This document shows, piece after piece, positions 6,609-43,995 of a stretch of 64,000 nt of DNA. The stretch's first letter is position 1. Each line of letters opens with the position of its first letter. This DNA comes from Halorubrum sp. Atlit-26R. Lineage in GTDB: Archaea; Halobacteriota; Halobacteria; Halobacteriales; Haloferacaceae. Made by a program: the position numbers and the translations under genes. The DNA lies in assembly GCF_003666015.1 (NCBI RefSeq), contig NZ_QPLT01000002.1, positions 310,001 through 374,000 of the forward strand, written 5' to 3'. The notes under the pieces were generated by a model. The model did not search any database, was not told the DNA's origin, and saw only the letters and a list, made by a program, of their open reading frames with translations.

Positions 6609-6658
6609 ATAGTCGAGTCTGGTCGCGGGGTCGGTTGCTCCGTGAATTCGGTTGTTTG

Positions 6659-7006
6659 TTTATAACTGAGAGTGTGCGGATCAACAGCGAACACCTCCAA
6701 AGCCCCAGCCGCTCACTTATAAACTGATGAGTGTCGATCGACGGTGAACACCTCCAAAGCCCCAGCCGCGAGGACTCGCGCGGCTCGCTGCGCGCTTCGG
6801 TCGCTCACTCCGTTCGCTCCCTCCAGTGCTTACGTCGCCGGGCTTCGTCCTCGCGGCTGCCCCTTTGAGTCCCACCCCGCACCGCGGCCTCACGCCTCCC
6901 CAGCCTCGTCAGTCGCCGTCGCTTCGCTCCGGCGACTGACTCCCTCGCGCGACGCTCCTCGCGCCCGTAGGGCGCTCGGAGGCGCGCGCCGCCGATTATT
7001 TTTAAA
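6659..7006 (+). repeat. Structured intergenic element, copy A (plus orientation)
   Basis: Fills the gap between engB and the enolase-like gene. It opens with two 57-bp units: TTATAAC at 6660 and TTATAAA at 6717, each followed by exactly 22 nt and then GAACACC (6689 and 6746), then TCCAAAGCCCCAGCC. The body shows paired arms GCCGCGAGGAC ... GTCCTCGCGGC, a conserved TGCCCCTTTGAGTCCC, CTCCCCAGCCTC, a hairpin GTCAGTCGCC ... GGCGACTGAC, and ends in a T-rich ATTATTTTTAAAT. Short reading frames here are spurious. Function unknown; see findings. Confidence 0.9.
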
Positions 7007-29480: not shown

Positions 29481-29917
29481 TTTATAAACTACAGGTGCGG
29501 TGGCGCGTGCCTGCGAGCGGCCGCCCCCGGCGGCCGCGAGACAGCACGCGCGAGGGACGCCGCGAACGCCCGAAGGGCGTGAGCGGCGAGGCTGGGGAGG
29601 CGTGAGGTGCTGTGCGGAGCGCTGCGGGGCGGGACTCAAAGGGGCAGCCGCGAGGCGGGCGCAGGCGACGTAAGTAGCGTGGCGCTACGCGCCACGGAAA
29701 GCCGGCGGCGAAGCCGCCGGCGACACCGCAGGAACGAGCGAAGCGAGTGACGAGGAGCGTGGTTCGAGAGAGCGAAGCTCTCTCGTCATCCCGAAAATCT
29801 TCGATTTTCGGGCGACAGCGAGCGTGCGCCCGCCTCCCGGCTGGGGCTTTGGCGGTGTTGGCCGTCGATCCACGGTCGCTCATTTATAAGCGAGGGGCTG
29901 GGGCTTTGGCGGTGTCA
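29481..29917 (-). repeat. Structured intergenic element, copy B (minus orientation)
   Basis: The largest body of the family. On the minus strand a unit with TTATAAA (29889-29883), 22 nt, and CAACACC (from 29860) leads into the body; a truncated second unit (TGACACC from 29917) lies exactly 57 bp upstream. The body has arms GAGGCGGGCGC / GCGCCCGCCTC and, inside them, extra perfect palindromes: CCCGAAAATC/GATTTTCGGG, GAGAGAG/CTCTCTC, GCCGGCGGC/GCCGCCGGC and GTGGCGC/GCGCCAC. The terminal stem GCGCGTGC/GCACGCGC is kept. It ends at a GTTTATAAAC palindrome about 80 bp before gatE. Confidence 0.9.
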
Positions 29918-30120
29918 ACGATCTATCCGAAATCAACGGCGCTGTTGAAATCCTCACTCGGAGATATGTCCTTGAAACCATGCTGAATACAGAGCGCGTC
30001 TCGGTCACTGAGCTCTCGGGCGTTGGTGAGAGAGTGAAGGCTTCCGATCGAGAAACCGCGGCGGCGCGCACCGCTGCGTATCCCGGACTACAGCAGACGT
30101 TGAGCGGGGATCGGACGTAA
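29911..30120 (+). pseudogene. Probable 3' remnant of a gene cut by repeat copy B
   Basis: An open frame of about 68 codons reads NDLSEINGAVEILTRRY.. to ..AAARTAAYPGL before a TAA at 30118, with protein-like composition but lower GC3 than neighbours. Upstream it runs straight into the 57-bp unit of repeat copy B and then a stop, so no proper start or promoter is seen (an internal ATG exists near 29980). I read it as the C-terminal fragment of an older gene. Family unknown. Confidence 0.35.
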
Positions 30121-30463: not shown

Positions 30464-31154
30464 GGTCGCGTAAAGTTAGAGGATGAGGCGGTCGATTTCT
30501 GAGTGTCTATGCCAGAATTCGACCGCCTCAGCGAACGTATAGCGTGGATCGACTTGTCGTTTGTGGAGCGAGATCGAACTCCGCGTTGGGTGATTGAAGT
30601 AGGGATCCGCTGTCATTTGGCCGGTATGTCACTACGTGAGGTAAGTAAGCATCTTGAACTGTTTGGGATCGATCGGAGTCACGTTGCTGTTCACAACTGG
30701 GTTCACAAAGCCGATCTACAGCCGATCTCAACCGTCTCCGAGGATCAGCTTGCGGTTGACGAAAAGATGATCCGCCTTCACGGACAGAAGTTCTGGCTGT
30801 ACGGTGCGGTTGATCCGAACACGAACGAGATCCTCCACGTGAGCCTCTATCCGACCGCAAATAAACAGACGACGCGATGGTTTCTCACCGAGCTTCACCG
30901 GCGCTATCAGCTCGATAACGTCGAATTTCTCGTCGATGACGCAGACTATCTCGGATCAGTTCTCGCTGAGGACGGCTATCGATTTCAAGTCATTCGTCAT
31001 GGAAATCGGAATGCCATCGAACGTGTCTTTTGGGAAATAAAACGACGAACATCATCGTTTGCGAATAGTTTCAGCAATGTCGCGCTCGAGACAGCTCAAG
31101 ATTGGCTCGAAGCCGTCGCCGTCTACCACAACTCACGCCAAACTTAACGCGACC
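30464..31154 (+). mobile_element. Intact IS6-family insertion sequence, 691 bp, with 8-bp target duplication
   Basis: Inverted ends begin GGTCGCGTAAAGTT (left, from 30464) and GGTCGCGTTAAGTT (right, read from 31154), 13 of 14 matching. The 8 bp outside each end are identical: GCCGTTCC at 30456-30463 and at 31155-31162. One transposase gene fills the element. Perfect ends and duplication imply a recent, still intact insertion. Confidence 0.95.
30509..31147 (+). CDS. IS6-family transposase
   Basis: A 212-residue DDE transposase. Acidic residues are D84 (LAVDEKMI), D143 or D144 (FLVDDADYL) and E171 (NAIERVFWEIKRRTSSF). An N-terminal HTH region (LREVSKHLELFGIDRSHVAVHNWVHKA) is present. The terminal HGNRNAIERVFWEIKRR is the hallmark of haloarchaeal IS6/IS240-like elements. 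Length and motifs are complete. The stop lies within the right inverted repeat, as is usual for compact IS6 elements. ATG 30509 is preferred to an upstream GTG. Confidence 0.95.
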   Translation: MPEFDRLSERIAWIDLSFVERDRTPRWVIEVGIRCHLAGMSLREVSKHLELFGIDRSHVAVHNWVHKADLQPISTVSEDQLAVDEKMIRLHGQKFWLYGAVDPNTNEILHVSLYPTANKQTTRWFLTELHRRYQLDNVEFLVDDADYLGSVLAEDGYRFQVIRHGNRNAIERVFWEIKRRTSSFANSFSNVALETAQDWLEAVAVYHNSRQT

Positions 31155-41580: not shown

Positions 41581-41903
41581 TTCAAATCAGACAAATCGGC
41601 GAGCGACACCACCGAAGCCCCAGCCGCGAGGACTCGCGCGGCTCGGTGCGCTCCTCGCTCGCTCCGCTCGCTGCGGTGCTACCGTCGCCGTGCTTCGTCC
41701 TCGCGACAGCGTGGCGCTACGCGCCACGGGCAACCGGCGGCTTCGCCGCCGGTGACTGCCCCTTCGAGTCCCGCCCCGCTCCGCACCGCAACCGTACCTC
41801 ACGCCTCCCCAGCCTCGTCAGTCGCCGTCGCTTCGCTCCGGCGACTGACTCCCTCGCGCGTGCCGCTCGGCCGCGGTGCGGCCTCGCGGGCACGCGCCAC
41901 CGC
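41581..41903 (+). repeat. Structured intergenic element, copy C (plus orientation)
   Basis: Body starts near CGACACCACCGAAGCCCCAGCC (41604) without an intact TTATAAA at the expected distance, so the promoter-like unit has decayed. Arms GCCGCGAGGAC / GTCCTCGCG, the module GCGTGGCGCTACGCGCCACG, the hairpin CCGGCGGCTTCGCCGCCGG, TGCCCCTTCGAGTCCCGCC, the 10-bp stem GTCAGTCGCC/GGCGACTGAC and terminal stem GCGCGTGCC/GGCACGCGC are all present. It lies between divergent elp3 and the DUF790 gene. Confidence 0.9.
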
Positions 41904-43487: not shown

Positions 43488-43490
43488 CGT

Positions 43491-43972
43491 ATTTAAATAA
43501 GTGCTGTGGCGCGTGCCGATGAGCGCCCGAAGGGCGCGAATCGCACGCGCGAGGGAGTCAGTCGCCGGAGCGAAGCGACGGCGACTGACGAGGCTGGGGA
43601 GGCGTGAGGCTGCGGTGCTGTGCGGGCGGGCGGGACTCAAAGGGGCAGCCGCGAGGCGGGCGCAGGCGACGTAAGGACCGCAGGGCAGGAGCGAGCGAAG
43701 CGAGCGACCAACCGAGGACCGCAGCGAGCGTGCGCCCGCCTCGCGGCTGGGGCTTTGGAGGTGTTCTCCGTCGATCCACATTCCGTCATTTATAAGCGAA
43801 CGGCTGGGACTTTGGCGGTGTTCAACGCCGTCCCGTAGTCAATTATTTATAAGGAAGCGACCGTGGCTTTGGTGGTGTTCACCGCCGGTCCGTGAGCGGC
43901 TATTTATAAACGATCGATTGGGGTTTGAGAAGTGTTCTCCGCCGATCCGCGATCAGTCATTTATAAGCAGTA
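43491..43972 (-). repeat. Structured intergenic element, copy D, with four 57-bp promoter-like units
   Basis: On the minus strand four units follow one another. TTATAAA at 43966, 43909, 43852 and 43795 is each followed by exactly 22 nt and then GAACACT, GAACACC, GAACACC and GAACACC (starting 43937, 43880, 43823 and 43766; 57 bp apart). The body pairs GCCGCGAGGCGGGCGC with GCGCCCGCCTCGCGGC, then the stem GTCAGTCGCC/GGCGACTGAC, then GCGCGTGC/GCACGCGC enclosing GCGCCCTTCGGGCGC, and ends in TTATTTAAAT at 43491. It separates two convergent genes. Confidence 0.92.
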
Positions 43973-43995
43973 AAGCGACATGTGAACGCGATCCG

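Follow-up and report, generated by a model that had tools for sequence, protein, structure and literature searches.

A covarying, strand-specific fold in a dispersed element family of the class Halobacteria

A dispersed element with a covarying, selected, and strand-specific fold was found in a Halorubrum genome (closest named genomes, H. sodomense and H. xinjiangense) and belongs to a family that extends through the class Halobacteria. The copies described below lie in the window, i.e., the whole stretch of 64,000 nucleotides that was analyzed. On balance, we think with modest confidence that the element is non-autonomous and that the product under selection is a folded single strand, probably an RNA of about 250 nt made from the + strand of the window.

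Architecture and covariation of the element

The first-pass annotation had described a layout shared by four copies. This layout was present at 43491-43760 and in three further copies of the window (Table 1), but the total is not four, since the genome holds at least 150 copies. The H3 domain comprises GGGACTC, a long stem, a GGG/GGG internal loop (43643-43645 with 43750-43752 in the window copy), and a conserved GACGYAAG...GCARCGAG core. By eye, we would guess at a kink-turn in H3. Downstream of it, the units of about 57 bp repeat the end of the H3 3' strand together with the TTTATAAG box; the first unit overlaps the H3 end, and the number of units differs between copies. A DDE_Tnp_IS240 transposase domain is encoded near the third copy (window 30503-31147, + strand).

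Table 1 Features of the element and its copies in the window
Feature	Position	Strand	Basis
AT-rich TATA-like box TATTTAAATA, 5' of H1	43490..43499	+	Sequence; TATA-like hexamer count across copies
Hairpin H1, with tandem G.A pair	43509..43550	+	Predicted fold; covariation; GA/GA in 74/77 copies
Single-stranded conserved linker GAGGGA	43551..43556	+	Invariant alignment columns
Hairpin H2 (GTCAGTCGCC.../...GGCGACTGAC), highest stem variability	43557..43589	+	63 different versions; pairing good in almost all
Conserved linker GAGGCTGGGGAGGCGTGAGG	43590..43609	+	Invariant alignment columns
G-rich variable spacer, GCGGT-type repeats	43610..43631	+	Alignment
H3 domain	43632..43759	+	Covariance model R1 match, E=1.7e-20; covariation
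About four tandem units of ~57 bp (CTGGGGCTTTGG...ATTTATAAGCGA), 3' of H3	43747..43975	+	Sequence, copy comparison
Second copy	6654..6990 (H3 6753-6873)	-	Model match, E=4.8e-23
Third copy	29587..29920 (H3 29631-29853, exceeding the usual H3 length)	+	Model match, E=7e-10
Fourth copy	41606..41863 (H3 41611-41727, nested double hairpin inside)	-	Model match, E=3.5e-12

The exchange of stems between copies was borne out. In H3, one class of stem is paired throughout (GAGGCGGGCGC/GCGCCCGCCTC) and the other is of the GAGGACGAAG.../...GAGTCCTC type, and the swapping of the second hairpin extends to dozens of almost perfectly paired versions of H2 (63 distinct). The proposed covariation also exceeded chance in a larger alignment. 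Among 80 aligned copies of this genome, 93.3% of the cells were paired, versus 82.1% in shuffles; both sides had changed at 43 of 65 base pairs (28.1 in shuffles); and the covariation score was 0.273, versus 0.099 (sd 0.003), with none of 500 shuffles as high, although the aligned copies are related and the shuffle counts are not probabilities. Safer evidence comes from the controls with slid arms, which scored at most 0.055, and from the orthologous site described below. For H3 across genera, the score was 0.459, versus 0.150. Covariation beyond chance and conserved non-canonical pairs, as expected of a structured RNA, were both found.

Copy number and taxonomic range

The whole-genome search returned 40 strong copies and many further candidates. 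With one mismatch allowed, a 13-base core matched 197 genome sites, versus 29 for the reversed control, and every one of the 150 candidates scored with the covariance model passed, which gives the lower bound above. The copies are intergenic, and a test for regular spacing along the chromosome was not significant (CV 0.87, p 0.13).

When Halorubrum letters were used for the search, at least 3 copies were found in 44 of 47 other Halorubrum genomes (maximum, 191), and 0 to 2, the control level, in 31 genomes of other families. The covariance model of H3 reached further: it matched 181 of 242 Halobacteria genomes, in 58 of 73 genera, and found between 3 and 94 copies in each of 18 genomes chosen from 17 other genera. 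In a phylum sample of 197 genomes, 24 had an H3 match, all of them in the window's own order, and no match fell outside the class Halobacteria; the haloarchaeal genomes without a match served as a rough G+C-matched control for this sample. Modules resembling H1 and H2 also occur in copies beyond Halorubrum (L246 and L206).

Carriage by plasmids or viruses was considered and set aside. Only two plasmid matches were obtained, one on Halorubrum salinarum plasmid pHAR01 (L207) and one on a plasmid of Halobaculum sp. XH14 (L206); the phage collection gave none, and an exact search of viral contigs for the conserved pattern was negative. Apart from these two plasmid records, the element seems to be chromosomal.

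Strand specificity of the fold

The fold with wobble and G.A pairs lies on the strand opposite to that written out in the first-pass annotation, namely, the + strand of the window. On this strand, G.T outnumbered A.C by 86 to 26 in well-paired columns of this genome, with 19 of the 26 A.C coming from two columns (10/52 and 200/277) in which subfamilies with another structure are misaligned. Counted per column, 21 favored G.T and 5 favored A.C (p 0.0012), and the counts in other genera were 46 and 8. At one base pair, the copies had CG 31 times, TG 30 times, TA 18 times, and CA never. Non-canonical features were kept while their neighbors varied: tandem G.A pairs in 74 of 77 copies for H1 and in 77 and 73 of 80 for H3, and the GGG/GGG loop in 79 of 80 copies here and 40 of 41 in other genera. 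The + strand also gave the more stable fold (z -6.6, versus -4.8 for the - strand).

The + strand is identified as the folded one because G.T far exceeds A.C and because the tandem G.A pairs and GGG/GGG are nearly invariant. Neither a double-stranded palindrome nor unselected repair gives a bias of G.T over A.C, and both are therefore disfavored. Selection on RNA or on palindromic DNA had been suggested; selection on a folded single strand has strong support from the covariation, the G.T excess, the non-canonical pairs, and the class-wide H3, but the double-stranded palindrome is disfavored. Because G.T is tolerated in DNA too, this evidence fits single-stranded DNA as well as RNA.

The element at the DUF790/DUF7122 site

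Besides the window, eight Halorubrum species carry the element between DUF790 and DUF7122; in other Halorubrum, e.g., CSM-61, tebenquichense, saccharovorum, and salipaludis, this site is empty. Of the nine filled species, six (the window, sodomense, xinjiangense, trapanicum, salsamenti, and amylolyticum) have a perfectly paired inner 14-bp stem in H3, and its sequence differs in all six. The remaining three differ in structure: lipolyticum has the second H3 class, kocurii has the H3 interior replaced by hairpins, and aidingense retains part of the element. The TATA-like box TATTTAAATA is found in most filled species and is missing from the empty sites. No target site duplication was seen by eye at three sites, namely this one, the upstream site, and one Haloarcula site.

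TATA-like boxes, repeats, and nested modules

The T-rich stretches that had been read as possible terminators are AT-rich TATA-like boxes, 5' of H1 on the + strand. In 57 of 90 copies, a TATA-like hexamer began at -40 to -18 relative to H1, versus 1 of 505 control windows, and a minority of copies had a second box near -50. The boxes were present whatever the orientation of the upstream gene and occurred on both sides of the element. With the usual archaeal spacing from TATA to start, the near box would place the start inside H1, and only the rarer far box fits, which counts against an RNA product. The H3-only copies inspected in other genera had no obvious promoter.

In other genera, H3 is often arranged in head-to-head pairs about 30 to 35 bp apart, bounded by TCCC[AG]CCC...GGG[TC]GGGA. 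Just a few copies (L251, L268, and L265) had outer inverted repeats that were both significant and symmetric; terminal inverted repeats were not a general feature. In L251 and L268 (genome G244) and in L250, TGTTCAGATAA inverted repeats flank H3 at equal distances on either side (31/31 and 21/22 bp), and these copies look as if they were MITE-borne. Several sites contain nested modules in which a TGNCAGC-like linker connects two neighboring hairpins, in both orientations, with variable but perfectly paired stems (L035, L042, L045, L057, L093, L096, and window 41606-41863 on the - strand). The double hairpins do not qualify as independent elements: 16 pattern matches in the genome included 13 true double hairpins, all within the element.

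Interpretation

In the explanation that we favor, H3 would be the ancestral core, kept through most of the class, with H1 and H2 as added modules. Copies would spread and swap modules, stems included, through recombination or another route of mobility, and paired changes would maintain the fold of each copy. Transcription may start from the AT-rich boxes 5' of H1, the conserved loops could serve for protein binding, and a factor for mobility or maintenance is presumably supplied in trans. A Y1/HUH transposase, the candidate tried, was rejected as the partner, Y1_Tnp being absent from five genomes with about 60 to 100 copies each (G004, G005, G016, G019, and G028), and no protein partner was found.

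It is possible, although we consider it unlikely, that the active form is instead the + strand as folded single-stranded DNA, recognized in trans by a recombinase or transposase as in REP/BIME or integron attC sites, and that any RNA is incidental. The loops point this way: 184 of 240 terminal loops had 3 nt, 125 of those were GNA, one GNRA was seen, and UNCG was absent. GNA triloops are very stable in DNA and a predominance of triloops is DNA-like, so that this spectrum counts against an RNA. The head-to-head pairs of H3, the symmetric outer repeats of a few copies, and the polymorphism of copies between species are also in keeping with folded DNA. However, the inspected sites showed neither target duplications nor a fixed end, the Y1 transposase is absent from the high-copy genomes just named, and the deep conserved internal loops exceed what an end-recognition hairpin usually needs. 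A cis-acting regulatory or boundary element for neighboring genes (a 3' UTR structure, an insulator, or a bidirectional promoter block) is improbable. Its intergenic location and the boxes on both sides would suit such a role, as would the 3' side genes, most of which faced the element (59 versus 31 by crude gene calling), but the 5' side genes had no preferred orientation (40 versus 41 by the same calling), close species differ in its presence at the same gene pair, and the copy number is very high. That copies are flanked by genes in both orientations was also counted against an RNA. We give hardly any credence to the idea that template-switch repair keeps the palindromes paired while the folded strand is not under selection: nearly perfect stems and short loops are what repair would produce, yet it would erase the G.A and GGG/GGG mismatches that the copies retain, and it predicts no excess of G.T over A.C.

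More speculatively, and in our opinion with a low probability, H3 could be a class-wide RNA (or single-stranded DNA) domain whose copies pair with one another via GGG/GGG in G-quadruplex synapses, with an architectural or trans-acting role. Molar intracellular potassium would favor such synapses. H3 would then be more than a mere genomic parasite, and thanks to the invariant loop, a quadruplex role at high potassium is open to direct testing.

Significance and comparison with known systems

In Rfam, no family reached the gathering score and the window copy drew no match with E below 1; other loci gave only chance matches to miRNA precursors, far below the cutoff. In the library searched, a literature search covering haloarchaeal repeats, small RNAs, and the conserved letters themselves found no description of the element, and the family, whether structured RNA or folded DNA, seems to be undescribed. 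A structured element that recurs in most genera of this well-studied class of archaea, and exceeds 100 copies in some genomes, is without an RNA-family entry. Its copies amount to a natural mutagenesis of one fold, in which the test of G.T against A.C mismatches reveals the folding strand. If transcribed, the element would rank with the most numerous non-coding RNA genes of these cells; as active folded DNA, it would point to a recombination system not yet known.

Membership in REP/RAYT is rejected on the transposase test; the other systems are resemblances. REP/BIME sequences with RAYT (Y1_Tnp) are likewise high-copy intergenic hairpins or palindromes, with head-to-head pairs and long persistence in a genus, whereas the haloarchaeal element has a complex multi-loop fold and several high-copy genomes lack Y1_Tnp. 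The IscB-associated HEARO/OMEGA RNAs are also structured RNAs on a mobile element, multicopy and often ORF-less, but the haloarchaeal element has no Rfam match, and no associated ORF was noticed on non-systematic inspection. The fungal mitochondrial double-hairpin elements resemble the nested modules in their two adjacent hairpins with variable, perfectly paired stems; the haloarchaeal double hairpins, in contrast, occur only within the larger element. Integron attC sites share variable stems, conserved unpaired bases, and a strand-specific fold, whereas no integron integrase context was noticed here and the element has a multi-loop core and the GGG/GGG loop. BOX elements of Streptococcus pneumoniae, compared by description, are modular intergenic repeats with structured arms and a varying number of units, but the haloarchaeal fold is much longer, covaries between copies, and is class-wide.
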